Source of the DNA: Ewingella americana ATCC 33852
Lineage (GTDB): Bacteria > Pseudomonadota > Gammaproteobacteria > Enterobacterales > Enterobacteriaceae
Assembly: GCF_000735345.1 (NCBI RefSeq)
Contig: NZ_JMPJ01000065.1
Location: 310,001-374,000, forward strand
Reading direction: 5' to 3'
Length of the DNA stretch: 64,000 nt
The translations under genes and the position numbers were made by a program. Shown in pieces: positions 39,074 to 52,604 of the stretch. Position 1 is the first letter of the stretch. Each line of letters begins with the position of its first letter. The notes beneath the pieces were generated by a model that was given only the letters and a program-made list of their open reading frames with translations, was not told where the DNA came from and did no database searches.

Positions 39074-39150
39074 GGCCCCTTAGCTCAGTTGGTTAGAGCA
39101 CGCGACTCATAATCGCTTGGTCACTGGTTCAAGTCCAGTAGGGGCCACCA
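39074..39150 (+). tRNA. tRNA-Ile2 (anticodon CAU, lysidine-modified), ileX-like
   Basis: 77 bases with encoded CCA. Acceptor stem GGCCCCT/AGGGGCC, D-arm GCTC/GAGC, T-arm ACTGG/CCAGT and anticodon loop CTCATAA, anticodon CAT at 39108-39110. The position next to mug and sequence closeness to E. coli ileX (from memory) mark it as the minor isoleucine tRNA that reads AUA after TilS converts C34 to lysidine, not a methionine tRNA. The first base pair of the anticodon stem (position 27-43) is a C-U mismatch. Confidence 0.9.
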
Positions 39151-39178
39151 AATTTTTGCTGTGAAATCAGCATATTGA

Positions 39179-39204
39179 GCCACTTCTTAGGAAGTGGCTT
39201 TTTT
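39179..39204 (+). terminator. tRNA terminator
   Basis: Arms GCCACTTC (39179-39186) and GAAGTGGC (39191-39198) with loop TTAG, then six T. Confidence 0.88.
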
Positions 39205-39355
39205 GTTGGCTAAATATCAGTGGCGATGAAATGGCGATAGAAAATCCCTGCCTCCCGTTGGGCCATCACATACATTTAGTTTCGAATAAAACGAGACGGC
39301 TTTTCTGCCGATTTTCCGCAAGAGGGCAGCTTTCATAGTTTGAGCGAGAAAAAAT

Positions 39356-40147
39356 TCAGCTGTAATAGGCTGGAGCAAGCCTGTTTTTGCTCCATTCTTG
39401 CGGATCGTGGCCGGGTATAAATACCGCGTTATGTTGCTCGGTGAGCTGGCGTAGCTTGCGGACAGACTGAGCCACATCAGTGGCTGACGTCATCAGGCCG
39501 GGGAGCGCCCTCTCGTGGTAATGATCCAAGGTGTAAGCTGCATCAATGGCGAGCATAAAGTTCTTACCACTCGGTAATCTGATAAGAAAAGATTGATGCC
39601 CCGGTGAATGCCCCGGCGTGAAAATACACTCTAACGTGCCATCGCCATAAAGGTCATAGCTATCATCTGAAGGCCCGTTAAGAAAAAACCAATTAAGTTC
39701 AGGGCGATCGTAATCTTTTCGACAATAGGCTCCAGCTGTAAACCAATCCGGCGTAAAGGCATATTCATACTCTCGCCTTTGCACTACATAAGTGGCATGC
39801 GGGAAGCGACCAATCGCGCCAGTATGATCGGAATGCAAATGGGACAGCAGCACATAGCGGATATCCTCCGGCGCAATGCCAACGCTTTTAAGCTGCGCTA
39901 AGCATCCCTGTTTTTCTGACATCACCGGCTTAAACTGCTCTACAGCATTCCCCCAATATGCATAGGGGTCTGGCAAACCTTCAACAGCCAGACCACCGTC
40001 GATGAGGGTATATCCATCCGGATGTGTCAGTAAGAACCAAGGGACGGGGATTTCATAACTCTCTCCCATGCCCTGATTCATCCAAATATCCTGATACTTA
40101 CAATGTTGAGTTCCTGACTGGAACATAAAAAGTCTGATATCTGACAT
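39356..40147 (-). CDS. Metallo-beta-lactamase-fold hydrolase, N-acyl-homoserine-lactonase-like
   Basis: 263 residues from MSDIRLFMFQSGTQHC (start at 40147; an ATG five codons earlier is possible). The size and layout fit the AttM/AiiA lactonase group. The zinc motif HLHSDH is H103-X-H105-X-D107-H108 in LLSHLHSDHTG. The third metal histidine is in FTPGHSPGHQSF (about 180), the bridging aspartate in AIDAAYTLDHY (about 202), and the last histidine in FIPGHDPQEW. Such enzymes open the lactone ring of quorum-sensing signals or gamma-butyrolactone. Divergent from a LysR regulator with a strong inverted repeat between them. Substrate is inferred, not shown. Confidence 0.8.
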   Translation of the reverse strand: MSDIRLFMFQSGTQHCKYQDIWMNQGMGESYEIPVPWFLLTHPDGYTLIDGGLAVEGLPDPYAYWGNAVEQFKPVMSEKQGCLAQLKSVGIAPEDIRYVLLSHLHSDHTGAIGRFPHATYVVQRREYEYAFTPDWFTAGAYCRKDYDRPELNWFFLNGPSDDSYDLYGDGTLECIFTPGHSPGHQSFLIRLPSGKNFMLAIDAAYTLDHYHERALPGLMTSATDVAQSVRKLRQLTEQHNAVFIPGHDPQEWSKNRLAPAYYS

Positions 40148-40174
40148 AATTAATTTCCACATTTAAATCAATTG

Positions 40175-40202
40175 AATATATTCCAGCGCAATGGAATATA
40201 TT
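40175..40202. promoter_or_regulatory. 28-bp inverted repeat between lactonase and lysR genes
   Basis: Perfect 10-bp arms AATATATTCC (40175-40184) and GGAATATATT (40193-40202) with spacer AGCGCAAT. It contains the T-N11-A pattern (ATTCC-N8-GGAAT) of LysR-type recognition sites. It is 28 bases before the hydrolase start and 90 bases before the regulator start. Confidence 0.7.
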
Positions 40203-40291
40203 GCCGAATGTGGATTTTTTATCATTTCACAGAAAAACAGTAGATACCTATATCCACTTACATTTATCTGTAAAACCAATATAATCGCTAA

Positions 40292-41194
40292 ATGGATCTC
40301 TTCTCAGCAATGCGTATTTTTATCAGGGTGGTCGAGCGGGGCAGCATGTCAGCTGCGGCCCGCGATCTTGGCATTGGGCAACCCGCAGTCAGTGAAAGAA
40401 TAGAAAAACTGGAAGCCCATCTCGGCACTCGTTTGCTGAGGCGCAACACGCGCAACATGTCTCTGACGCATAGCGGCAATTTATTTTATGAGCGGAGCAA
40501 AACGGCCATTCAGGCGGCAGAACACGCTCTTTTAGTGAATGAAGAGAATCAGAGTCTGCAAGGCAAAATCCGCATTGCCGCGCCCTATTCTGCTGGCGAA
40601 AGCCTGCTGATGCCCGCGATACTTCGACTTCAGGACCAACACCCTAGCCTACAGGTTGATGTGATTTTTAACGATAATGTCATCGATCCTGTCACTGAAG
40701 GTGTGGATTTATCATTGAGGCTGGGAGATCTCTCGGAAGGTTTTTTTGTCGCACGTCCACTTGGCATTGTGCGCAGAGTGTTACTGGCTTCTCCCGCTTT
40801 GCTGGCTAAAATGGGCGATCCGCAGTCTCCTGATGAGCTGGCAGGTTATCCATTTGCTGCTGTTTCGGGCATATTTGCCAACAACCGGATTCAATTACTC
40901 AGCTCTGAAAACCAACTAATGAATGTTCCGATCGACGTTAGATTTCGGGCCACGCACTGGCGAAGCGTCTTCACATACTTATTAGCTGGGCATGCTATTG
41001 GTGTTCTGCAATACCCGGTTTGTAGAAACGAAATTGAAAAGAGTGAGTTAATACCTCTTTTAAGCCACTTTCAGCTCCCCTCTTTTAACGCCTATTTGCT
41101 TCATCCACCAACAGTCATGATGTCATATGAAACACGAATTTGTGCCTCTCTGCTGGAGGGTTATCTCAAAGATTCGCTGCTTGAGATGTCGTGA
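40292..41194 (+). CDS. LysR-family transcriptional regulator
   Basis: 300 residues. N-terminal winged helix-turn-helix SMSAAARDLGIGQPAVSERIEKLEAHLGTRLLRR is typical; the rest is the periplasmic-binding-protein-like effector domain of the CrgA/AaeR-type group (GKIRIAAPYSAGESLLMPAI). Divergent from the lactonase-like gene, so it most likely controls that gene through the inverted repeat at 40175-40202. The effector is unknown. Confidence 0.88.
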   Translation: MDLFSAMRIFIRVVERGSMSAAARDLGIGQPAVSERIEKLEAHLGTRLLRRNTRNMSLTHSGNLFYERSKTAIQAAEHALLVNEENQSLQGKIRIAAPYSAGESLLMPAILRLQDQHPSLQVDVIFNDNVIDPVTEGVDLSLRLGDLSEGFFVARPLGIVRRVLLASPALLAKMGDPQSPDELAGYPFAAVSGIFANNRIQLLSSENQLMNVPIDVRFRATHWRSVFTYLLAGHAIGVLQYPVCRNEIEKSELIPLLSHFQLPSFNAYLLHPPTVMMSYETRICASLLEGYLKDSLLEMS

Positions 41195-41292
41195 GGTTGA
41201 TATTTTTTGTTTGTGGCAGATAGCGGACTTTTTGCATTCGCAACAAAGCCAGCAAAGAGAAACTCGCCTGATAAGCTTGGTCATTGTTTAAG

Positions 41293-41446
41293 TCAAACCA
41301 ACCCCAACAGCCGATCCCGCAACCACTGCCCTACTCCCCGTAAGATGACTCGCAGCCATGTGTTAAATATCTTAGCTGAGAAAAATAGTCGTTTTCCCAA
41401 CAGGATAGCTGATGTAAAAACACACCTACGGAAACTAGGCACATCT
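41293..41446 (-). pseudogene. Relic of a DoxX-family gene, C-terminal end
   Basis: A 50-codon stretch on the minus strand ends VILRGVGQWLRDRLLGLV followed by a stop at 41293-41295. The intact DoxX gene 2.6 kb away ends [18 protein letters not shown] and stop. At the DNA level 41293-41349 and 43879-43935 match at 48 of 57 positions by my alignment. There is no start with a ribosome site and the part upstream of the match is not DoxX-like, so this is a broken copy. Confidence 0.75.
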
Positions 41447-41488
41447 CGTTAGATCAGTTTTAAATTCGGCGTGCCAGTCTCCTCAAAA

Positions 41489-41602
41489 TTACTTCCTTCT
41501 TGGCAACATAATCGACGTGATGCGCTTTTTTGCCCTAAAACTCCTAATTCTGATGATCATATAAACCAACACGATAAAGATAACAATGGGAAGTGTTGTC
41601 AT
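41489..41602 (-). CDS. 37-residue membrane microprotein
   Basis: Starts MTTLPIVIFIVLVYMIIRIR and ends in a basic tail (FRAKKRITSIMLPRRK). One predicted membrane helix (about residues 4-19) with a positively charged C-terminus, so probably N-out, C-in. An AAAGGAG ribosome site lies eight bases before the ATG. It begins 13 bases after the stop of the DUF4034-like gene, so the two are almost certainly one transcript. I recognise no family. Function unknown. Confidence 0.65.
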   Translation of the reverse strand: MTTLPIVIFIVLVYMIIRIRSFRAKKRITSIMLPRRK

Positions 41603-41615
41603 CGCAAAAACTCCT

Positions 41616-43637
41616 TTATTGGGCCACACTATTCATTATTTTTTTCATTTCCTCGGGTATCTTACCTCTACCCTTTTTTAGGGCACTATTGTAAAAGGGT
41701 TTTATACCAACAGCATGTTTTGCCGTGGTGTAAAAATCTTGATATTCAAGGTCAGGATACCATGCAAGTGCCATATTCATCCAAAAATCCATAACGAATA
41801 TATTTTTTCTCATCCCGCGCCCATTAAAAGCACAGAAAGCATATAGATAAGCGATATAAGCTAACTGATCTAATCTGACTCGGGATTCGGCCAGAACTTT
41901 GGGGGCCTCAATGAATAGACCTTTTATAATCTGCTGTTCTTCGCTTGAGGAAATTAAGCTGCATGCATAATCGTACTGAGATACAGCATCTCCCAACTGA
42001 ATGTTCTGTTTAAGTAATCTCTCTCTTTCGAGAGCAAGCTCGGACTTCACGGATGGCTTAGTACTACGCTCAATTAAACTCTCTAAATCGCGAGATTTAA
42101 TTAAAATGGCGTGTGTTGAACCCTGCTTAACTGCAATATCTAAAAATTCTCTTTCTTTATTCTCGTCAGGATGAATTGAAAGCATGCCTGCCATCCCAGG
42201 GACGTTACCGTGATAAATTTCATAGAACAGCAACGAGGCACTGGTAGTCATATTTTCGATTGCAAACCTTTCCAACACTGGTTTTATTGAAGAGGCATAT
42301 CCCATTTTGCAAAGCATGAAAATGTGCAGTCTGAAAATGTAGTAATCGAAGTTCTTCTCAGCGAGCATATAATAACGTTCGAGGCTTTCACGTTGAGTGA
42401 AAAGCGAAATATTAGCTAATGTGAAGTTTGCCGCGAAAGTACTATAAAGAACATCTATCGGTGAAGTTAAATTTCGGAACTGTGTCTGTCTAGCTATGTC
42501 GTCAAAGACATGGGATTTATCATCGAATTCATAAATTTTCATAAATGAAATGAGTTGATTAAAAATCTCTTCTGATTGATAAAAGAGGAACCAAGGCGAC
42601 GCTAGCTTTACAATATGATGTAACGATTGATAAACACTTTCTACCATGTCATCTTTTGCACTTTGTTTAGCCTTTGGATCTGTCTCTAAGACATGGTTAC
42701 AAAAGTAAACATACTCAAGCAATGTCCGAGAAGTCTCATCCTTGGTGAGCGGAGAATTAATTAAATCTATAAAATTACTTGCTCTCCTCTTTAACTCTTT
42801 TCTGTAATTAAGCAAAGGAAGAGTATTATATGAGGTTAGTTGGTCGTACTCTTTTTCACGCTTAAGTATTTTTATATCTAACTCGGATAAACTGGAACAG
42901 TAATCACTCGCTAAAAAATAATCAATATCTTCATATTTTTCTCCCCCATACCATCTTGGCGACAAGAGTTTTATCACTACTTTTCTTGAAATCATATGGT
43001 CAGGAGCAATAGCCAGAATTCTCCTCAACCAGTAGAGCGGAATAAACCTCTCTTCTTCTTCACTAGGTGATGGAAGATTTATATTAATTGAACCATGTGG
43101 AATACTATAGGTTGTGAATGAAGATACAAACTTCACAGCTTCTTCATTATAGCTTTCACAAGAATAACGAATAGGCTTAGTGACTAGAAAATCAAGCCAC
43201 TCCGGCATACCGAAATATCCTGAAGCCTCTAACAGCATTGTATATGCTGTTTCACACTGAGGATTAAACTCTAGAGTTTTCAAAGCCCAATAAAAAAATT
43301 GATCATTTGCCGCACTACAATTCTGACGCTGTGCCGGAGTAACTCGATCTATAGTTTGTTTACCACGCTGGTTGGCGGCAGTAATAAACCAGAAACTAGC
43401 AAAAAAGACATAAGGGTAATAGCTATGTGGGGTTTCCTGCTGCCACTCCTGAAGCTGTGACAATATTGAATCCAGCCCTTCCACCTGAGAATTAAAAATA
43501 AATGGAAATTGAAGTACATTTTGTAAGTCCTTTCTGGAGAGTGGCGCAAACAGGGCCTCAATATCTTGATATTTTTTTTGGCTTATTTTTTCCTTCACTT
43601 GCTGTTGTAAGTCATATATCTCAACGAGGGATTGCAT
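41616..43637 (-). CDS. Large AT-rich protein, DUF4034-like N-terminal region
   Basis: 673 residues from the ATG at 43637 (AGGA about ten bases before it); the frame extends to 43718 without support. The first 150 residues resemble the DUF4034 pattern: a hydrophilic start, LQEWQQETPHSYYPYVFFASFWF, ANQRGKQTID, then FFYWALKTLEFNPQ. The later part is helical and repeat-like (Sel1/TPR-type character, for example the LAYIAYLYAFCAFNGRGM stretch). No signal peptide. The base composition is clearly more A/T-rich than all neighbours, a sign of horizontal gain. Function unknown; the next gene is a 37-residue membrane protein. Confidence 0.75.
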   Translation of the reverse strand: MQSLVEIYDLQQQVKEKISQKKYQDIEALFAPLSRKDLQNVLQFPFIFNSQVEGLDSILSQLQEWQQETPHSYYPYVFFASFWFITAANQRGKQTIDRVTPAQRQNCSAANDQFFYWALKTLEFNPQCETAYTMLLEASGYFGMPEWLDFLVTKPIRYSCESYNEEAVKFVSSFTTYSIPHGSININLPSPSEEEERFIPLYWLRRILAIAPDHMISRKVVIKLLSPRWYGGEKYEDIDYFLASDYCSSLSELDIKILKREKEYDQLTSYNTLPLLNYRKELKRRASNFIDLINSPLTKDETSRTLLEYVYFCNHVLETDPKAKQSAKDDMVESVYQSLHHIVKLASPWFLFYQSEEIFNQLISFMKIYEFDDKSHVFDDIARQTQFRNLTSPIDVLYSTFAANFTLANISLFTQRESLERYYMLAEKNFDYYIFRLHIFMLCKMGYASSIKPVLERFAIENMTTSASLLFYEIYHGNVPGMAGMLSIHPDENKEREFLDIAVKQGSTHAILIKSRDLESLIERSTKPSVKSELALERERLLKQNIQLGDAVSQYDYACSLISSSEEQQIIKGLFIEAPKVLAESRVRLDQLAYIAYLYAFCAFNGRGMRKNIFVMDFWMNMALAWYPDLEYQDFYTTAKHAVGIKPFYNSALKKGRGKIPEEMKKIMNSVAQ

Positions 43638-43803
43638 GAGTAAACGTCCTGTTCTGAAAAGATAGCTGTAATTGTAGCAGCACAAAAAAAATTTTCTGAA
43701 TATTGAATACCCATACAATTAGAAGGCATTTTAGGCATGGACCCTAGCTGGCGTAAATTATTGGGTGGAGTTGGAGAATTAATGTCTTATGTTGAAATGC
43801 GGT

Positions 43804-43878: not shown

Positions 43879-44361
43879 TCAAACCAACCCCAGCACCCGA
43901 TCCAGCGACCACTTCCCGGCTCCGCGTGAGATGACCATCAGCAGCAATCCGCCCCAAATCAGGTGAGTTGGCCATGCGTCGGGATAGACAAAGATCTCAA
44001 TAATCAGCGTCATAAACAGCAGGCCGCTGGCAGCGAAGCGGGAGAGCAGGCCGAGGACCAGCAGCACTGGGAAGGTGTGTTCGGCAAAGGTCGCCAGATG
44101 CGCGGCGATGTCATAGGGGATCAGCGGCAAGGCGTATTCGGTTTTAAACAGCTCATAAGTCGAAGGTTTGAGGGTCATGAAGCCCGTCACTTTGGTGCGC
44201 CCCGAGAGGAAAAACACCGCCGCAATGCCCACTCGGGCGACCAGCAGCAGCACGTTGCCACTGACCACACGCTGCACGCCGCGCCAGGTCCCATTCCACA
44301 ACCCGCGCAGACCTTGCTCAGAAGAAGCCTGATTATTTAAAGAGTTATCTGTCGTTTTCAT
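43879..44361 (-). CDS. DoxX-family membrane protein of the bufferin operon
   Basis: 160 residues: a cytosolic N-terminal arm of about 35 residues, then four hydrophobic segments (about 37-55, 82-103, 107-124, 132-143) typical of DoxX/quinol-oxidase-like proteins, with the conserved [20 protein letters not shown] entry and [17 protein letters not shown]. The last gene of four; it begins 15 bases after bufC. DoxX members close many bufferin (gig-type) operons. An exact role is not known; handling of quinones or of redox during cysteine modification or export is a guess. Confidence 0.88.
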
Positions 44362-44376
44362 TTTTACCTCTAAGAA

Positions 44377-45129
44377 TTAATGCGCCGTCGCGGCGAACAC
44401 GCCGAGATGCAGTAAGCGCGTGAAAAATGGACCAATATCGAATGTCGGTTCGGCGTGTAATGCCCGTTCGCTCGCCGCGTTCAGGTTCGCGCCATCGCGG
44501 CAGGCAGCGAGAAATGCCGCGCCGCCACGGCTTATCGGCTCGGCCTCAATACCCTGTTGGCGCATCACCAGTAGCGCGCCCTCTCCTTGCCACTGAATAT
44601 TCTCCGGCGGCGCAGTGTGGTAACGGTTGAAATGCCACAGCGTGAAGACCGGCAGGCTCGGGTGCCAATGCCAGCGCACCGCGTCGCGCAAGGATAAAAC
44701 CAGCTCGCCAACCGACTCTGGTGGCAACTCAGCCAGTGCCTGCACCGCCAAACAGGCTGCCGATTCGGCGCAAAACATCTCCAACCACAGCCAGTCGAGT
44801 CGCGCCACGTCAGCCAGATAGCCCAGGTCGGCGGCGGGCAGATAGGTGGCGATAAAAGCCGGGAAGAACTCGCCGTAGCGAATCAGCATCCCCTCCCTCG
44901 GCGGCTCCACCAGCGCGTATTGCCGCGCCATCTCGCGGAAGAAGTCCTCTCCGGTCAGGCTGGCAACGCTGGGGAAATTGGCCTGAAGCGCGTCGATGCA
45001 GCCTTTTAGCACGCTGTTGCGATAGACCATAAACCCCGGCTGTTGCTGTAAATGCGCCAGTTCATTGCTGTTCTCGTCATACAGGGCGCGGATAAAAGCC
45101 TGATGATACCGAGCCAGTTCGCCGCTCAT
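44377..45129 (-). CDS. bufC: Bufferin maturation partner BufC (DUF2063)
   Basis: 250 residues. N-terminal DUF2063 domain with [16 protein letters not shown] and the [29 protein letters not shown] hallmark, then a second helical/mixed domain. DUF2063 proteins are the RRE-like partners of MNIO enzymes that hold the precursor peptide. Its ATG overlaps the bufB stop (ATGA), so equal amounts of both are expected. The family is often mislabelled as a DNA-binding protein. Confidence 0.88.
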
Positions 45130-45962
45130 CGCAGACCTCCGTAGGTGTGAAGGATGCCCTGTGCTCGCTGCTGCTCCTGTAATAACACCGCGAACTCCGG
45201 TAGTTTGTCGTCGCGTTCAATCAGCGTTGGGCGCGCACCGATGCGCTGAATAAGCCGTTGATAAAGCGCCCAAACATCGTCGGAAACCGGGTTGTCGTGG
45301 CTGTCGATCAGCAAACTGCTGCCGCCTTCGTCGCTACTAAACCCGGCCAGATGGATCTCGGTAACGTGGTCTGCCGGAAAACCGTCGAGCCACGCGGCGG
45401 CGTCAAACCCCAAGTTGTGGGCACTCAGCCAGACATTGTTGATATCCAGCAGCAGCCCGCAGCCCGTGGCACAGCTCACTTCGTGCAGAAACGCGATGTC
45501 ATCCCACTCGTGCTCCGGCATATGCAGATAGTGTGTCGGGTTCTCCAGCGAAATCTGCCTGCCCAGCGCGTCCTGCACCCGGTCAATATTGTCGATTAAC
45601 CGGCGCATCACCTGCGAGGTGCGCGGCACCGGCAGCAGATCCGGGTAGTAAGCGCCGTCCCACTGCGACCACGCCAAATGCTCGGAAACCAAGGCCGGTT
45701 TAACCTCGTCCACCAGCATTTTTAGGCGAGAGAGCAGCGCGGCGTCCGGCGGAGCATCGGCGGCCAGAGAGAGCGAAACGCCGTGCAGAGAAATTGCGTG
45801 CTGCTGGCGAATCGCCTCCAGCCACTCCCTGCGTGGGCCACCGGCCATGAGATAATTTTCACTGTGGACTTCAAACCAAACGTCCGCCGGACTTTTAAGC
45901 GCCTGCTGGTAATGTTCCGGCTTCAGCCCCAGCCCGGCACCCAGTTGAGTTATTGTCGTCAT
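45126..45962 (-). CDS. bufB: MNIO enzyme BufB (DUF692), bufferin cysteine-modifying oxygenase
   Basis: 278 residues, TIM-barrel DUF692 protein. Multinuclear non-heme iron oxidases of this family convert cysteines of BufA-type precursors to thiooxazole-like heterocycles. The metal-ligand pattern is intact: FEVHSENY (E31, H33), LHGVSLSL (H60), VSEHLAWS (E94, H95), LENPTHYL (E140), [13 protein letters not shown] (D173, N176, H182) and EIHLAGF (E202, H204), followed by the IDSHDNPV block. It lies 18 bases after the precursor gene and overlaps bufC. Confidence 0.92.
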
Positions 45963-45980
45963 GGTGGTGGCCCTCTTGGC

Positions 45981-46247
45981 TTAGCCTTCGGTCAGTGAAC
46001 CGTGGCCTTTTGGTGTCTGGATGGAGGTGCAGGTGCCTTGCGGAACCATCTTGTAGGCGTCTTTCTGGTAATCGATTTTGGAAGTCCCGGCGCAGGTGGT
46101 GCCCGCCCCGGCCTTGCAGTCGTTATCCGCCGCTTTTGCCACACCAAAACAGCGCTCTAAATTAGGGCCAGTGGCTTCAGCAGCTAAAGACGCGGCGCTG
46201 AAAGAGATCAGAGATAAGGCAATAGCGGACATAGCAATACGTTTCAT
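45981..46247 (-). CDS. bufA: Bufferin precursor peptide BufA (DUF2282)
   Basis: 88 residues with a Sec signal peptide of about 22-23 residues (cut near SLAA), unusual for RiPP precursors but normal for bufferins. The mature part has four cysteines, C33, C44, C52 and C73, in the family pattern [20 protein letters not shown] and MVPQGTC, ending in a glycine-rich GHGSL tail. After modification by BufB/BufC and export, such peptides bind copper in the periplasm and protect cells. The equivalent gig genes of Cupriavidus respond to gold and copper. First gene of the operon. Confidence 0.9.
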
Positions 46248-46346
46248 ATAAAGCTCCAGAAAGTTGAAAGTTAAATTAAATAAATGATGTCAGACACAGC
46301 ATTAACACAGTGAGATTATCTAATGTGACATTACCTCCTTATTAAA
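46248..46346 (-). promoter_or_regulatory. Leader between dipZ-like gene and bufA
   Basis: 99 bases, A/T-rich. On the minus strand AAGGAGG stands two bases before ATG-TCA-CAT-TAG, a three-codon frame right after the dipZ-like stop. The rest probably carries the bufA promoter; no clear -35/-10 pair or ECF-type box could be fixed by eye. Confidence 0.35.
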
Positions 46347-47537
46347 TTAAGCCTTAGCTTCGGCTAATAATGCGTTGATGACTTTCTCTTGCTGCTGATA
46401 ATTACCTTCTCCGAAGTTCTGATAACGTAATTGTCCTTTGGCATCGAAATAATAATGCGCGGGCCAATATTGGTTACCGAAGGCATTCCAGATGGCGTAA
46501 TTATTATCAACCGCGACCGGGTACTTAATATTCCATTTATTCAGCGCTTGTTTTACGGCATCGATATTCTTCTCCCACGGATATTCCGGGGTGTGAATAC
46601 CAATCACCACCAGCCCCTGCGACTGATATTTCTCAGCCCACTCGCGGACGTAAGGAATACTGTGCTGGCAGTTAATGCAGTCGAAGGTCCAGAAGTCGAT
46701 TAACACCACTTTGCCTTTTAACTGCTCCGGCGTGAGTGCCGGGGAGTTCAGCCACGTTATGGCGCCATTGAGAGACGGCATTTGGCTGGAAGGTGCCTGA
46801 ATATCAACGGGTTGTAGAATCACTCTCTTGGCCGGTGAAGGCTTGAGGGTCAGCAGATGCTGCTCCAACTGCTGTCCAACGGCGCTATTGGTATCCAGCA
46901 AACTGGTAGCTCCCGAGGCGATAAACACCACCGAGGCCAGCATCATCACCCCGGCCATCTGGCGAAAACGCAGAGTGAGTGCCATTTTGGCTCGCAGTCT
47001 GGTGAGCAGCTTGTCACCGCAAAACCACAGTAAGGCCAGCATGGTCGCGCAGCCGCTGCCATAGGCCAGCAGCAGTAACCCACTCTGCCCTGATGCTCCG
47101 TTAAGCATGGTGGTACTGAGGATCGCCCCCAGAATCGGCCCCGCGCAGGGTGCCCATAACAGCCCGACTGCTCCCCCGGCCAGCAGCGCGCTGGTGATAC
47201 CCCGCTGCTGGCGGCTGCGGCTATCCAGCAGTGAGCCAAGGCGCACCGCGGGCTGCGCAATCTTCTGAGCAAAACGTTCAGAGATAAGCGACAGCGCGGT
47301 GATAGCCAATAACCCCAGCGCCAGCCAGCGGCCATATTTGCTGGCATGAACCACCCACTCGCTGCTCGCCGTTGCCAGCAGAGCCACCAGCGTGAAGGTC
47401 AGTACCATGCCGACGAGCAAGGCCGCGAAATGGCGTTTATTGCTGCCCGCTCCGGCGAATAACAGCGGGATCACCGGCAGCGTGCACGGGCTTAACAAAG
47501 TGAGCATTCCGCCCAGATAAGCAATCAGAATTGGCAT
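46347..47537 (-). CDS. DipZ-like protein: CcdA membrane domain fused to thioredoxin domain
   Basis: 396 residues. The N-terminal part has six or more membrane helices of the CcdA/DsbD-beta type, with the two redox cysteines in TLLSPCTLPVIPLL (C18) and LLWAPCAGPILGAI (C131). The C-terminal domain (about 260-396) is a TlpA/ResA-like thioredoxin with active site CINC (C287, C290) in IDFWTFDCINCQHS and a VAVDNNYAIWNAFGNQYWPAHYY cis-proline region. It should carry electrons from cytosolic thioredoxin to periplasmic thiols. It lies 99 bases upstream of bufA on the same strand, which suggests a link with the thiol-rich bufferin. Confidence 0.88.
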   Translation of the reverse strand: MPILIAYLGGMLTLLSPCTLPVIPLLFAGAGSNKRHFAALLVGMVLTFTLVALLATASSEWVVHASKYGRWLALGLLAITALSLISERFAQKIAQPAVRLGSLLDSRSRQQRGITSALLAGGAVGLLWAPCAGPILGAILSTTMLNGASGQSGLLLLAYGSGCATMLALLWFCGDKLLTRLRAKMALTLRFRQMAGVMMLASVVFIASGATSLLDTNSAVGQQLEQHLLTLKPSPAKRVILQPVDIQAPSSQMPSLNGAITWLNSPALTPEQLKGKVVLIDFWTFDCINCQHSIPYVREWAEKYQSQGLVVIGIHTPEYPWEKNIDAVKQALNKWNIKYPVAVDNNYAIWNAFGNQYWPAHYYFDAKGQLRYQNFGEGNYQQQEKVINALLAEAKA

Positions 47538-47557
47538 GAGAACTCCCTGACCACGGG

Positions 47558-48325
47558 CTAGTTACCCGAAGTGATATTCACCGCTTTGAAAATTGTGCGG
47601 GCGACGTTTTTTGGGTCATACAGCATCGGAACGTGGCTCACCGGCAATTCGGTCACGTGGGCGTGGATTTTCTTCGCCATCGCGCGCTCCAAGTCGGGAT
47701 TGATCATCCGATCCTTGCTGCCGACCAAGAACCAGCTGGGCTTGGTTTCCCACGCGGCTTTAGTGACTTTTTCATCAAAACTTGAGGCGCGGATTGGCAC
47801 CTGAGTAATGCCCACTATGTTCTGCGCCTCTGGCGTGGCGTCCTGTGCAAAGTCGCTGGCGATGGCGCTGGTTGGCAGGCTGAGGAAGCCGTCAGCCCCT
47901 TTCACAATTTTTGCGCTGCCCGGAGGTGCTGGGAAGCTTTTCACCAAGTCGGCGGTGGACTGCCCGGCAGACGGCGCGAAGGCGTTGATGTACACCAGCC
48001 CTTTGACGCGCGGGTTGTTGCCAGCCTGGGTGATGACCGTGCCGCCCCACGAGTGGCCGACCAGAATCACGTCGCCTTTGGCGCGGGCAATGGCGCGTTC
48101 AGTCACTTCGACATCATCTTTCAGCGAGGTCAGCGGGATTTGCGCGGTGATAATTTCGTAATGGCGCGACTGTAGCGCGGGGATCACCTGCTCCCAGCTG
48201 GCAGTGCCGTCGGCGAAAGCGCCGTGGACCAGAACAATGGTGTGAACCTGCTCCGCGTGGGCGGAAAAGCCGGTCATCAGACCGGCGACGGTCATTGCCA
48301 AAAACGTTTTGTGTAGCGGCTTCAT
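47558..48325 (-). CDS. Exported alpha/beta-fold hydrolase
   Basis: 255 residues from the second ATG of two in tandem (AGGAG is six bases before it). Signal peptide of about 23 residues (ending FSAHA). The mature protein starts TIVLVHGAFADGTASW with the oxyanion histidine-glycine; the nucleophile serine is in VGHSWGGTVI, and the acid and base are in LVGSKDRMINPD and VSHVPMLYDP. It belongs to the salicylate-esterase-like (RsbQ/EstA-like) periplasmic group. Substrate unknown. Twenty bases before the dipZ-like gene, so one operon. Confidence 0.85.
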   Translation of the reverse strand: MKPLHKTFLAMTVAGLMTGFSAHAEQVHTIVLVHGAFADGTASWEQVIPALQSRHYEIITAQIPLTSLKDDVEVTERAIARAKGDVILVGHSWGGTVITQAGNNPRVKGLVYINAFAPSAGQSTADLVKSFPAPPGSAKIVKGADGFLSLPTSAIASDFAQDATPEAQNIVGITQVPIRASSFDEKVTKAAWETKPSWFLVGSKDRMINPDLERAMAKKIHAHVTELPVSHVPMLYDPKNVARTIFKAVNITSGN

Positions 48326-48400
48326 CATTTTCTCCTGAAATACCAGACCAAGTGACGTGGGCGGGATGAGCTTCCCGACATAACAAGACTAAAGTTGTTA

Positions 48401-48477
48401 TGTATCTGGCATGTTTCGGTCTGGTAGCGGATTCTTATGTCTATGTATCTGGATGACGTAATAAATAATGAGATACA
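48401..48477. promoter_or_regulatory. Repeated TGTATCTGG motifs in front of the hydrolase gene
   Basis: TGTATCTGG occurs at 48401-48409 and 48444-48452, and the inverse hexamer GATACA at 48472-48477. The same motif pair occurs upstream of the response-regulator gene at 51037-51061. This distribution suggests sites for the neighbouring OmpR-type regulator. Confidence 0.45.
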
Positions 48478-48480
48478 CAA

Positions 48481-48750
48481 TTAACGGTATATTTCAGCGA
48501 CGCCGTAATAACTGTTATTGCCACCGGCGGCGATAATGCGATACGCGCTGGCCCCGGCTTTGTCCGCTTTCATCGAAAGATTGTCATTTAATTCAGATAA
48601 TGAAAGTGCATTACTGCTGCTGTCAGAAACGGTGCCAATTTTCACCAAGCCCTGTGCGTTGTTGACTTCTTTGGCGGCAAAGGCAGGTGTAGCGGCAGCG
48701 GCGGCAATAAGCAAAGAGAGTGGCAGAATAACGGTGCGGAAGAGTTTCAT
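48481..48750 (-). CDS. DUF1471 periplasmic stress protein (YhcN/BhsA-like)
   Basis: 89 residues from MKLFRTVILPLS, which follows GAGG; the longer frame is not used. Signal peptide of about 25 residues (ending PAFA), then one DUF1471 fold (KIGTVSDSSSNALSLSELNDNLSMKADKAGASAYRIIAAGG). Enterobacterial relatives BhsA, McbA and YhcN are small periplasmic or outer-membrane proteins induced by copper, acid, peroxide or chlorine stress; BhsA (ComC) lowers outer-membrane copper permeability. That history fits the copper-related context here, but the specific role is inferred. Confidence 0.85.
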   Translation of the reverse strand: MKLFRTVILPLSLLIAAAAATPAFAAKEVNNAQGLVKIGTVSDSSSNALSLSELNDNLSMKADKAGASAYRIIAAGGNNSYYGVAEIYR

Positions 48751-48911
48751 AATAAGCCTCACAATATATCGGTTAGGTTAAGTTTATTTCCGCCGGACCC
48801 TGTCTCGGCGGATGACTTATTTAAACGTATAAATGTATGTGGGCTGTTTCAATTAACGGTAGATTTGTTTTCCTGTATAGCGCCGGGCGGCGCTGATACA
48901 TAAGAAAACAA

Positions 48912-50219
48912 TTATTCAGTGAGAGGGAAATGGATCTTGACCTGCAAACCCTGTGGCTGGCGGTTGGCTAATTGCAGTTTACCCTTCAGCTGATTGACCA
49001 ACTGCTGGGCGATAGCCAAGCCTAAACCTGTGCCGCCAGTATCGCGATTGCGCGAGCTTTCGACCCGATAGAAAGGTTGCAGCACGGACTCCAGCTCTTC
49101 TGGCGGAATGCCCGGCCCGTTGTCAGCAATCACAATCTCCACCGCTCCACTCTCGCCGAGGCTAAGCCGCAGCTCGGCACTACCGGCAAACTTCAGCGCG
49201 TTATCAATCAGGTTGGTCAGAATACGCCGCAGCGCCTGTGGGTGAGTGACCAGCGCCACGGCCTGCCCGGCGGGGGTGAAAGTGACGTTTTTCCCCACGT
49301 CGAGATAGTCGCACACCAGACTGTCGATAAAGGCATTGAGGTCGATTCGACTCAACTTCTCTTCAAGATTTTCTGACGCGCGGGCATAGGCGATCCCCTC
49401 GCGCACCAGATGAGTCATCTCCTCGAGATCCAACAGCAGCTTGTCGCGCAGCTCGGGCTGGTCGGCCATTTCGGCACGTAATTTCATCCGCGTGATTGGC
49501 GTCTGCAAGTCGTGGGAGATGGCCGCCAGAATCTGCGCCCGCTCCTTCAAATAACCTTTAATTCTGGCCTGCATGGCGTTAAAAGCCCGCGCGGCGTAGC
49601 GCACCTCGGCGGGTCCGCTCTCCACCATGGTGCTAGCAGACAGCGAGGTCGGGTCGAGTGACTCAATCGCCTTGGTAAAAACGGTCAAAGGCCGCACCGC
49701 CTGACGCACGGCGAACCACGAACAAATCAGCAGCAGGACCAGCTGCACGCAGAGCACGAAGGGCAGCCAGTTGGCGATAGGCGTCGGGCGCGGCATGACA
49801 TCAATGGTCAGCGGCTGGCCGTCTTTCAAGGTGAGGTGCGCCTGTAGCTGCTCCTGCTTGCCCGCAATAGCATTGATCGACAGGTGATAATTGGCACCCA
49901 GCGCCTGCTCCAGCGACTTGGCGGTATCCTGTGAACGCCACGTCGTCGGGTACTCGCCGGACTGACCGGCGCTAAGCAAATAATGGTAGTTCCCGCGCCC
50001 GAGCATGCTCAACCAGGCCGGGCGCTCGGCGGCGGGCAGCCGGTCGAGGATCGCCACGCTGGTCGCCACGTCATATTCGAGGTTACCCAGCATCACCGAG
50101 CGCGCACTGCTAATGCGTTCATACATCAATAAGCTCAGCGTCAGGGCGTTAGCCAGCAGCAGGCCGAGCAGCACGATAATCAGCAGGCGGGAAAGCAGAG
50201 AGCGCGGCCACCACGTCAT
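48912..50219 (-). CDS. Two-component sensor histidine kinase
   Basis: 435 residues. Two membrane helices (about 10-32 and 152-170) enclose a 115-residue periplasmic sensor region. HAMP domain (about 171-225), HisKA with phospho-acceptor H236 in AISHDLQTPITRM, and HATPase_c with N-box LIDNALKF, G1 DNGPGIP and G2 GGTGLGLAIAQ. The family is EnvZ-like. Its start overlaps the regulator stop by four bases. No cysteine or histidine-rich metal site is visible in the sensor region, so the signal cannot be read from sequence. Confidence 0.93.
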   Translation of the reverse strand: MTWWPRSLLSRLLIIVLLGLLLANALTLSLLMYERISSARSVMLGNLEYDVATSVAILDRLPAAERPAWLSMLGRGNYHYLLSAGQSGEYPTTWRSQDTAKSLEQALGANYHLSINAIAGKQEQLQAHLTLKDGQPLTIDVMPRPTPIANWLPFVLCVQLVLLLICSWFAVRQAVRPLTVFTKAIESLDPTSLSASTMVESGPAEVRYAARAFNAMQARIKGYLKERAQILAAISHDLQTPITRMKLRAEMADQPELRDKLLLDLEEMTHLVREGIAYARASENLEEKLSRIDLNAFIDSLVCDYLDVGKNVTFTPAGQAVALVTHPQALRRILTNLIDNALKFAGSAELRLSLGESGAVEIVIADNGPGIPPEELESVLQPFYRVESSRNRDTGGTGLGLAIAQQLVNQLKGKLQLANRQPQGLQVKIHFPLTE

Positions 50220-50974
50220 TCGCGTGCCTCTTTAATCACCACCGGCATGGAGAAAACGTAGCCTTCGCTGCGCATGGTTTTGATGTAGGCCGGTTCGCGA
50301 GCGTCATCGTTAAGTCGCAGACGCAGGCGGCTGACCAGCAAATCGATTGAGCGCTCGAACAACTCGGCGTCGCGGCCTTGGGTCAGATTGAGCAGTTGGT
50401 CGCGGTTTAGCACGCGCTGGGGATGGTCGAGAAACACCCGCAGCAGCCGATATTCCGCGCCGCTGAGCGCCACGATAGTGCCGTCGGCAGCCACCAGATG
50501 GCGCGCCGACGTGTCCAGATCCCACACGCCAAAGGAGAGTAAACGCCCTGCTTCGGTCACTTGCAGGTTTGGTGGCATCATGCGCGCACGGCGCAAAATC
50601 GCCTTGATGCGCGCCAGCAGTTCACGGGCGACAAAAGGCTTCACCAGATAGTCGTCCGCGCCCATTTCCAATCCCAAAATCCGGTCAGTTTCCTCATGGC
50701 GGGCGGTCAGCATCAGGACCGGAATAGTGCGATGCTTGCCGCTGCTCAACTCGCGGCACAGCACCAGACCGTCATCGCCCGGCATCATGATATCCAACAC
50801 AATCAGGTCCACCGGCTGGGTTTCCAGCAAGGCGCGCATCTGCTTGCCATTGGCCGCCACGCTGGTGCGCAGCCCGGCCTTTTGCAGGTAATCGGCGATA
50901 AGGTCACGAATATCGCGGTCATCATCCACGATCAGAATATGGTCAATATGATCCACGTAAACGTCCATTAGCAT
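50216..50974 (-). CDS. OmpR-family response regulator
   Basis: 252 residues. Receiver domain with acidic pocket VDDDRD and phospho-acceptor D61 in IVLDIMMPGDDG, and lysine in DYLVKPF. C-terminal winged-helix DNA-binding domain with SGAEYRLLRVFLDHPQRVLNRDQLLNL and RSIDLLVSRLRLRL. The exact start is uncertain: neither ATG has a good ribosome site, and a GTG at codon 7 is possible. An inverted TGTATC/GATACA pair lies 63-87 bases upstream of the start (51037-51061), as expected for autoregulation. Confidence 0.9.
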   Translation of the reverse strand: MLMDVYVDHIDHILIVDDDRDIRDLIADYLQKAGLRTSVAANGKQMRALLETQPVDLIVLDIMMPGDDGLVLCRELSSGKHRTIPVLMLTARHEETDRILGLEMGADDYLVKPFVARELLARIKAILRRARMMPPNLQVTEAGRLLSFGVWDLDTSARHLVAADGTIVALSGAEYRLLRVFLDHPQRVLNRDQLLNLTQGRDAELFERSIDLLVSRLRLRLNDDAREPAYIKTMRSEGYVFSMPVVIKEARE

Positions 50975-51036
50975 CAGGAGGGATGAACAGATTGTATCCT
51001 ATTATTTCGGCCTAAAAAGTCGGCTTTGTACCACAG

Positions 51037-51061
51037 TGTATCTGGACGGGCTGGGGATACA
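51037..51061. promoter_or_regulatory. TGTATC/GATACA inverted pair upstream of the response-regulator gene
   Basis: TGTATCTGG at 51037-51045 and GATACA at 51056-51061 form an inverted pair with 13 bases between the hexamers. The same motif recurs near the hydrolase gene. Confidence 0.45.
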
Positions 51062-51097
51062 TGGCGAGAGATAAAGAGAGGAGAAACGAGATAATAA

Positions 51098-51965: not shown

Positions 51966-52604
51966 TTACGCCAGCAGGGTTCTGACGAAATCTTCGATCT
52001 CTTTGTTCTGACCGTTTTCAAACAGGCATTTCTGGAAGCGCGGGCCACTGACCGCCGTCTTCACCAAGTCTTTATCAATGGCGCGCAGGGTGTCGAGGTA
52101 GTTCTCCTTCACCACGGCGGCTTTGACCTGATTAAGAATTCCAGCGTTGCGCACCTGAGGCTCTTTGCGATCCGCCGGATAGCCCTGACCCCTTTCACCC
52201 GAGAAGGCTTTCTCAAAGATGAAGCGCACGTTCAGCTCTGCGCCCCAGCCGTAACCTTTGGCGAAAGGCAGGGAGAGCGCGTTGCCGTTGTTGATCTGGG
52301 CAAACAGGTAGGCATCCGCCGGGTCGATACAGTAACCACAGGCCACGCCCGGATGGATATTCAGTGACATCAGCGCGCCCTGCCCGGTGCCGCAGCCGGT
52401 GACCACGAAGTCCACCGCCTTGGCATTCAACAGAATGCTGGCCATGATACCGAGATGAATATAGGTCAGGTGGTGGTCCTGCTCGTCACTCATGCCGACG
52501 TTGTAAACCGAGTAAGACTTCTCGTCCGCCACGGTTTTCAGCTCTTTCAGGACCGACGCATTTTTCGCGGCCTGACTGTTTTCCATCATCAGTGCAATTT
52601 TCAT
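51966..52604 (-). CDS. RpiB/LacA/LacB-family sugar-phosphate isomerase
   Basis: 212 residues, longer than E. coli RpiB (about 150). The RpiB fold is recognisable from VDFVVTGCGTGQGALMSLN, where CGTG forms the phosphate/active-site loop with the catalytic cysteine, followed by HPGVACGYC and ADAYLFAQINNGNALSLPF. The extra C-terminal 60 residues are typical of a distinct subfamily. It should interconvert aldose and ketose phosphates; the sugar is unknown because no transporter or kinase is nearby. A DUF2000 gene lies 99 bases upstream on the same strand. Confidence 0.82.
   Translation of the reverse strand: MKIALMMENSQAAKNASVLKELKTVADEKSYSVYNVGMSDEQDHHLTYIHLGIMASILLNAKAVDFVVTGCGTGQGALMSLNIHPGVACGYCIDPADAYLFAQINNGNALSLPFAKGYGWGAELNVRFIFEKAFSGERGQGYPADRKEPQVRNAGILNQVKAAVVKENYLDTLRAIDKDLVKTAVSGPRFQKCLFENGQNKEIEDFVRTLLA

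Follow-up and report, generated by a model that had tools for sequence, protein, structure and literature searches.

Bufferins bind copper (PMC13097082, PMC12452194), and in peptides of the Buf1 class (bufferins/captophorins) the central two of four conserved cysteines are modified, while the outer two are joined by a disulfide bond (PMC12452194, PMC13097082). The gigPABT genes of Cupriavidus metallidurans CH34 (NC_007974.2) follow the order precursor, MNIO enzyme, DUF2063 protein and DoxX protein (P-A-B-T), and the σF operons CC3254-3257 and CC2907-2905 of Caulobacter, arranged as DUF2282-DUF692-DUF2063(-DoxX), belong to a small stress regulon (PMC3511200). A 64,000-nucleotide (nt) stretch of the genome of Ewingella americana ATCC 33852 (contig NZ_JMPJ01000065.1, positions 310,001 to 374,000; here called the window) carries at 43879-46247, on the minus strand, a complete Buf1/gig-type bufferin cluster, bufA-bufB-bufC-doxX, which has the gene order of gigPABT and of the Caulobacter operons as well as the core gene set and the four conserved cysteines of the Buf1 class. 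It is probable that this cluster is controlled by a two-component system encoded at the head of the same gene array.

The cluster comprises bufA (45981-46247; 88 amino acids [aa]), encoding a DUF2282 bufferin precursor (PF10048, 80.6 bits, cut-off 22.4); bufB (45126-45962; 278 aa), encoding an MNIO bufferin maturase (PF05114, 320 bits, cut-off 25); bufC (44377-45129; 250 aa), encoding a DUF2063 partner of the PME1 type (PF09836, 72.4 bits, cut-off 27.2); and doxX (43879-44361; 160 aa), encoding a GigT-like DoxX-family membrane protein (PF07681, 55.6 bits, cut-off 23.6). The original prediction, made from the letters of the DNA, had placed four same-strand genes of these kinds here and proposed a profile search with the DUF2282, DUF692 and DUF2063 models; the three proteins concerned, and DoxX as well, scored above the Pfam cut-offs, and the predicted spacing (18 nt between bufA and bufB, a 4-nt overlap of bufB and bufC, 15 nt between bufC and doxX) is exact. 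BufB also exceeded the cut-off of the NCBIfam model MNIO_BufB (NF050167; 354 versus 310 bits) and matched 3bww, 8hci and MbnB chains in a sequence search of the PDB, in which BufA and BufC had no credible match. The DUF2063 partner gene lies directly 3′ of the MNIO gene, and the DoxX gene usual in Buf1 clusters is present. Assignment to the Haemophilus-type HvfABCX was rejected (HvfX 40.5 of 80, HvfC 20.6 of 142 and HvfB 211.8 of 360 bits).

Residue conservation was assessed in a panel of 89 loci (one place occurring twice, as L006 and L102), from which non-matching loci were dropped (11 for BufA, 1 for BufB). The four cysteines that had been predicted for the precursor, Cys33, Cys44, Cys52 and Cys73, were invariant in 78 of 78 aligned relatives, and its signal peptide, judged by eye, is of the Sec type. 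In BufB, H60, H95, E140, D173, N176, H204, D220, H222, E249 and D251 were invariant in 88 of 88 relatives; among these ten are, presumably, the metal ligands of MNIO enzymes, which the original prediction had called intact. An AlphaFold model of BufA (38 sequences) had a predicted local distance difference test score (pLDDT) of 74 and a predicted template modeling score (pTM) of 0.57. By homology, the product of the cluster should be an exported, cysteine-modified, copper-binding peptide, with modification, copper binding and induction expected by analogy to the described relatives.

As a description of the full unit, the interval 43879-46247 given by the original prediction proved too narrow. 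The buf genes stand at the end of a nine-gene minus-strand array, RR-HK-bhsA-like-abh-dipZ-bufA-bufB-bufC-doxX (43879-50974), and the unit extends to about 50974-51067. RR (50216-50974) encodes an OmpR-family response regulator (PF00072 and PF00486) and HK (48912-50219) an EnvZ-like sensor histidine kinase (HATPase_c, HisKA). They are followed by the bhsA-like gene (48481-48762; YdgH/BhsA/McbA-domain protein, PF07338, 56.8 bits), by abh (47558-48328; alpha/beta hydrolase, PF12697, 79.4 bits, signal peptide by eye), which has a gap of 152 nt on its 5′ side, and by the dipZ-like gene (46347-47537; DsbD transmembrane domain and TlpA/redoxin domain with a CINC motif; PF02683, PF08534, PF00578), separated from bufA by 99 nt. 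The original prediction had also found no gene for an extracytoplasmic function (ECF) sigma factor or anti-sigma factor beside the cluster. Such linked genes are frequent, not universal, in gig operons; no match to the anti-sigma factor NrsF was found in the whole genome, by which an ECF-controlled cluster of the NrsF kind was rejected, and no ECF factor was found in the 13 Pfam-scanned genes in or beside the cluster, the search for ECF factors being confined to these. That part of the claim stands, but it overlooked the likely regulator, the adjacent RR-HK pair.

The promoter region 5′ of bhsA (48818-48912, minus strand) was matched by a profile trained only on other genera. At 48895-48911 (minus strand) it contains a response-regulator-type direct repeat, TTGTTTTCTTATGTATC, a putative box, which is the sole match to the pattern TTGTNTYNNTNTGTATC in the 64 kb (at most one mismatch; 0.09 expected). 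As this pattern was composed with the site already in view, the independent evidence comes from the profile tests. Orthologues of HK were found in 22 of 290 genomes of the family, spread over 14 of 154 genera; outside the genus they have 61-72% identity, and all 20 HK loci besides those of the window and of G001 were read. In HK loci, the region 3′ of HK contains TTGTATC-N4-TGTATC, then GACAAAAC, then GACACA...CACAT and TTAAAT. The profile was built from 14 of the 20 loci, excluding the Cedecea loci L166, L167 and L184, which belong to the genera under test, and L179-L181, which have no site there. When 97 loci (1.59 Mb) were searched with it (nhmmer), 17 matches fell below 1e-6: eight 5′ of bhsA in bufferin clusters (seven distinct places), three at Cedecea dipZ promoters, five 5′ of the hydrolase gene of RR-HK loci, and one in L179, preceding a 157-aa open reading frame (ORF) that resembles, by eye, the DUF6130-annotated gene of L215. 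E values of the eight bhsA promoters ranged from 1.2e-10 to 5.3e-9 (1.9e-9 for the window). The best match outside the system had an E value of 0.24 (L036), and nothing better was found in the other 77 bufferin loci (L007-L083) or in six loci of another enterobacterial bufferin type described below.

The 14 training sites included two bhsA-like promoters (L169, L182) and one abh promoter (L170). Because these three themselves precede abh or bhsA-like genes, which left the first run partly open to shared descent, a stricter run used the 11 dipZ promoters alone; it recovered the same eight sites at E 1.8e-10 to 1.6e-8 (window 1.6e-8), with the best outsider at 0.54. A profile from letter-shuffled training sites gave no match, and in none of the eight loci did the promoter profile match 5′ of bufA. 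A weaker promoter-type site lies 5′ of RR (51003-51067, minus strand; box TTTGTACCACAGTGTATC at 51025-51042, plus strand), with E 7e-4 for the 14-site profile in 1.59 Mb and 0.0015 genome-wide. The presumed bhsA leader holds a GC-rich hairpin (48789-48812), and similar CCGCC...GGCGG stems occupy the same place in Cedecea-type clusters.

For the genome-wide search, a sequence-only model of the 14 sites was applied to nine genomes and then to nine further ones. In each of three Cedecea genomes, a dipZ promoter and a bhsA promoter gave the two best matches (E 2e-12 to 8e-11) and a hydrolase promoter the next (4e-9 to 8e-8). The bhsA promoter was the best match in G000, the genome of the window (2.8e-10), and in G001 (7.7e-11). 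It ranks first or second genome-wide in each of the seven genomes that have a gig-type bufferin together with HK (G000, G001, G075, G195, G269 and those of L004 and L005), and in the last five of these it is distant from HK, bufferin cluster and HK being far apart on one contig in G075 and on different contigs in the others. Three of the four genus members without the array gave no match at E up to 1, the fourth one at 0.41. Weaker matches (3e-5 to 0.35) lie 5′ of Ohr in the three Cedecea genomes, in one of which the family was confirmed (TIGR03561, 149 bits, cut-off 89), and 5′ of another hydrolase gene in G000 and G001. Six of the further genomes had contributed a dipZ or abh promoter to the training set, so that those matches arise by construction; new were the dipZ and bhsA promoters of the L004 and L005 genomes and sites 5′ of hydrolase or DUF6130-like genes. 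G016, G148 and G242 have a site 5′ of an unlinked abh orthologue, and G016 has the unit promoter-bhsA-abh without a bufferin gene, its BhsA passing the NCBI cut-off (91.3 versus 90 bits), which suggests that a target already in place acquired the buf genes. In one search of ∼71 kb, profile matches also precede Ohr and DipZ in Microvirga (1e-8 and 1e-6) and three units in Sinorhizobium meliloti (4e-6 to 0.0014). Further weak matches were seen at G298:C12:41268, G000:C17 and G001:C1:1795827. The held-out profile finds the bhsA promoter in all seven genomes, including the five in which the cluster is remote from RR-HK or sits on another contig, and control of the operon by RR-HK is therefore very probable.

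The neighborhood of the two-component system is itself conserved. In the 20 HK loci, HK is followed by dipZ in 14 (in L166, dipZ had been masked in ORF picking and was placed by a separate search), by abh and then dipZ in L170, by what looks by eye like the start of a bhsA-like gene and then dipZ in L169, and by a bhsA-like gene alone in L182; only L179, L180 and L181 have none of the three there, so that 17 of these 20 loci, all from other genera, show the linkage. The dipZ orthologues adjoining HK in other genera are 55-67% identical, and the three genomes searched with DipZ (G075, G195 and G269) have the HK orthologue beside dipZ. The gene 5′ of RR encodes a second secreted hydrolase in six of eight loci inspected (Pfam checked for one). 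Replicons carrying the system include plasmids of Pantoea sp. Nvir (hydrolase-RR-HK-abh-dipZ) and Pantoea sp. Lij88 (RR-HK-bhsA-like), a Klebsiella plasmid record (hydrolase-RR-HK), pSymB of S. meliloti (cupin-epoxide hydrolase-RR-HK, with a hydrolase and DipZ nearby), a Microvirga plasmid (DipZ, RR-HK, Ohr and hydrolases) and a Paraburkholderia plasmid, on which the neighbors of RR-HK differ. The best NCBIfam model for RR was OmpR (238.6 bits, under the cut-off of 331), and the named heavy-metal systems (CusRS, CopRS, CztRS) were rejected: HK reached 141 of 292.6 bits with TIGR01386 and 104 of 423 with the Cu(+)/Ag(+) sensor model NF007345, and RR 135 of 279 with TIGR01387. Elsewhere in the genome of the window, a longer paralogue of DipZ (579 aa, 46% identity; L139 4671-7150, G000:C25) is encoded beside a methionine sulfoxide reductase gene.

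The genome scan with BufB kept 80 of 120 loci encoding a relative. Among these, the closest sequences were from isolate RIT693, Enterobacter sp. Cy-643 and Cedecea neteri (75-76% identity), then from three Burkholderiales (58-60%), all others being at most 48% identical; among the plasmid matches listed, C. metallidurans CH34 had 62.3% and Stenotrophomonas and Pseudomonas plasmids 62.5%. In a BufB tree of 87 rows, one clade (support 100/100) unites the window and its sister species with four Cedecea-type sequences and is nested in a 10-row clade with GigA and the three Burkholderiales (100/100); the cluster is therefore of the gig type and was probably acquired from a beta-proteobacterial source. 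The likeness to the Cupriavidus gig operon put forward in the original prediction is thereby borne out, with the same gene order, a common BufB clade and identities to CH34 of 64% for GigP (over 58 aa), 62% for GigA (over 265), 46% for GigB (over 220) and 58% for GigT (over 156). That the cluster was recently exchanged with E. coli or with plasmids of enterobacteria was rejected: there was no DNA match in 20,395 E. coli records, and MNIO enzymes encoded on enterobacterial plasmids were at most 47% identical among the matches listed (25 and 60 of 342 records). The other MNIO genes of enterobacterial plasmids (H43, H46-H49, H58-H68, H82-H85) are 34-47% identical among those listed, and the 342 matching plasmid records include 72 whose name begins with Escherichia, 18 with Klebsiella and 8 with Salmonella.

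Distribution of the cluster is patchy. DUF2282 occurs in 11 of 295 family genomes (5 of 154 genera); within the genus, two of six genomes have the BufB gene, and BufA, BufB, BufC and DoxX are 88-100% identical between the two carrier species. By DNA comparison, doxX through RR form one accessory block, for which synteny is kept in G001, while in each of the other four genomes the block has no DNA match of its own. All four retain the PAP2 gene beyond it, and G002, G003 and G005 also retain the neighbor of that gene at 51966-52604. On the other side, behind a tRNA-Met gene (39074-39150), the genes vary among the genus genomes and include a DUF4034 gene of low GC content (about 36-41%) at 41616-43718; 39074-43718, next to the bufferin block, looks like an integration hot spot. 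In the Cedecea-type loci (L004, L005, L006/L102, L101, L103; L006 apparently being in the same assembly as G269), a bhsA-like gene (65-69%) and abh (85%) lie directly 5′ of bufA (89-90%), but at another chromosomal place, beside formate dehydrogenase-like genes (by eye) and with no dipZ, HK or RR. The two lineages have a common gene inventory, merged in the genus of the window and divided in Cedecea-type genomes into RR-HK-dipZ and bhsA-abh-bufABC-doxX. A second, distant enterobacterial bufferin type (L095-L100; BufB 44-46% identical) is found in three other genera (g17, g57, g138) without bhsA-abh; it was rejected as close kin, L095, L096, L097 and L099 forming their own clade (100/99), and HK is present in one of six genomes with this type (G166) versus seven of seven with the gig type. 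Seven Burkholderiaceae clusters (L045, L063, L070, L077, L079, L080, L081) have a different two-component system between bufC and bufA/doxX, its histidine kinase being 25-26% identical to that of the window and, in L063, under every NCBIfam cut-off listed.

Gene content, family membership, conserved linkage and a shared promoter are computed observations. The simplest account of them is that promoter-bhsA-abh was an older RR-HK target, behind which bufABC-doxX was added, and that dipZ and RR-HK joined this unit in the genus of the window; a gig-type bufferin operon would in this way have come under a pre-existing envelope-stress system. HK would sense an envelope signal, and phosphorylated RR would bind the TTGTATC-N4-TGTATC repeats and activate the promoter at 48818-48912. 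From the common strand, the spacing, and the lack of a profile match or sigma-70-like site 5′ of bufA, we infer that bufA is transcribed from the bhsA promoter, on a predicted single transcript bhsA-abh-dipZ-bufA-bufB-bufC-doxX. BufB and BufC would turn the central BufA cysteines, Cys44 and Cys52, into 5-thiooxazoles in the cytoplasm; after export by Sec, the disulfide Cys33-Cys73 would close and the peptide would sequester periplasmic copper. As to physiological roles, the BhsA-like protein may lower envelope permeability, DipZ may provide the periplasm with thiol reductant, and reactive organics may be removed by the secreted hydrolase, joined in some relatives by Ohr.

Several observations weigh against this account. 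The cluster is found in two lineages only, so that the co-occurrence of bufferin and HK is not independent, and common descent may in part explain the shared bhsA promoter. L179-L181 have HK without a site 3′ of it, sites being present further upstream, and there are a few genome-wide matches at E 0.1-0.6. The BhsA-like protein of the window stays under the NCBIfam cut-off for BhsA (BhsA/ComC, NF047859; 64.6 versus 90 bits). The gaps 5′ of bufA and 5′ of abh are roomy enough for other promoters, and a minus-strand sigma-70 scan that found no site in either gap misses the bhsA promoter too. It is nonetheless unlikely that bufA has a promoter of its own, RR, HK, bhsA, abh and dipZ being a separate transcription unit. 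Such a promoter could reside in the dipZ-bufA gap, which contains an AGGAGG stretch kept in both lineages; against it speak the absence of profile matches 5′ of bufA in the eight loci and of a minus-strand sigma-70-like site in the gap, the lack of NrsF in the genome, and the fact that the only terminator-like match on the minus strand of the bhsA-bufA interval is weak and lies within dipZ. The AGGAGG itself (46334-46339) is strong, lies ∼90 nt 5′ of bufA, is kept although dipZ intervenes in one lineage, and heads no obvious ORF. That the island is a relic, with intact genes and a modified peptide no longer made, is very improbable: its presence in two of six genus genomes would fit, but all frames are open, key residues and the promoter are retained, and the proteins of the two carriers remain highly similar.

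Regarding the signal, a mixed role or one in copper is considered likelier than a purely oxidant one. An ordinary copper-induced gig operon, in which RR-HK or some other regulator senses copper (or gold) and the neighboring genes are incidental passengers of the island, is possible, if somewhat doubtful, and would be compatible with control by RR-HK. Copper and gold induce gigPABT in C. metallidurans (PMC10304878), bufferins as a class bind copper (PMC13097082, PMC12452194), the sequences nearest to BufB include GigA, the E. coli BhsA makes the envelope less permeable to copper (PMC12096828), and the block is accessory in the genus. However, bhsA and abh keep their place 5′ of bufA at the unrelated chromosomal site of Cedecea-type genomes and are therefore not mere passengers, and the genome-wide matches identified tie the array to Ohr, DipZ and secreted hydrolases, with no known copper gene among them. 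Moreover, in the periplasmic region of 22 HK orthologues, in which E34, R35, M43, D59, E65, R66, W69, R75, Y78, Y80, Y111, H128, D133, D140 and W151 are invariant (residue types examined), there is no conserved metal-binding cluster; with no invariant cysteine and a single invariant methionine and histidine, copper as the direct signal is unsupported. As the profile also finds Ohr and secreted hydrolases, the signal may instead be peroxide or electrophile stress. Our more specific proposal is tentative: a metallophore belonging to the ribosomally synthesized and post-translationally modified peptides (RiPPs) would have been recruited into an Enterobacterales/Rhizobiales regulon, whose unnamed two-component system senses envelope damage by organic peroxides or electrophiles, and the bufferin would chiefly stop copper-catalyzed peroxide chemistry in the periplasm, together with DipZ, Ohr and secreted hydrolases, rather than act as a copper-triggered copper buffer. 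Consistent with an oxidant or electrophile signal are Ohr, DipZ and hydrolases in the predicted regulon and the ∼15-fold induction of bhsA by hypothiocyanite in E. coli (PMC12096828). Against peroxides, and in favor of the ordinary copper-induced operon, the two σF-dependent bufferin genes tested in Caulobacter responded to chromium and cadmium, and were induced at most twofold by hydrogen peroxide or t-butyl hydroperoxide (PMC3511200).

Whatever the signal of RR-HK, the locus differs from described systems in what surrounds the buf genes. In CH34, gig is divergent to the ECF sigma gene rpoQ with the anti-sigma gene rsqA (PMC10304878), and the Caulobacter operons are governed by the ECF factor σF with a DUF1109-type negative regulator (PMC3511200); in the window, RR-HK, bhsA-like, abh and dipZ precede, and its genome lacks NrsF. 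Bufferins are numerous, and ECF sigma factors make up most of the regulators described next to them; a 2025 survey gives sigma/anti-sigma genes as linked regulators, the term "two-component" occurring 0 times in its main text (PMC12452194). In the literature searched, with most subscription journals beyond reach, neither a paper on the RR-HK system or on a bufferin with BhsA or DipZ nor a published name for that system was found. Because regulator, binding site and other regulon genes are predicted from sequence alone, the question of copper versus oxidants becomes testable in one strain, and the locus offers a handle on an apparently unnamed two-component system that, in bacteria ranging from enterobacteria to rhizobia, neighbors DipZ, Ohr and secreted hydrolases. 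The RR-HK-DipZ/Ohr/hydrolase loci of Enterobacterales, Sinorhizobium pSymB and the Microvirga plasmid share with the window HK orthologues of 55-72% identity, the same neighbors and the promoter site; unlike the window, those read contain no bufferin genes. Compared with known systems, the window holds a RiPP cluster of known kind, for which the predicted two-component control, the bhsA-abh partnership and the predicted regulon are apparently unreported.

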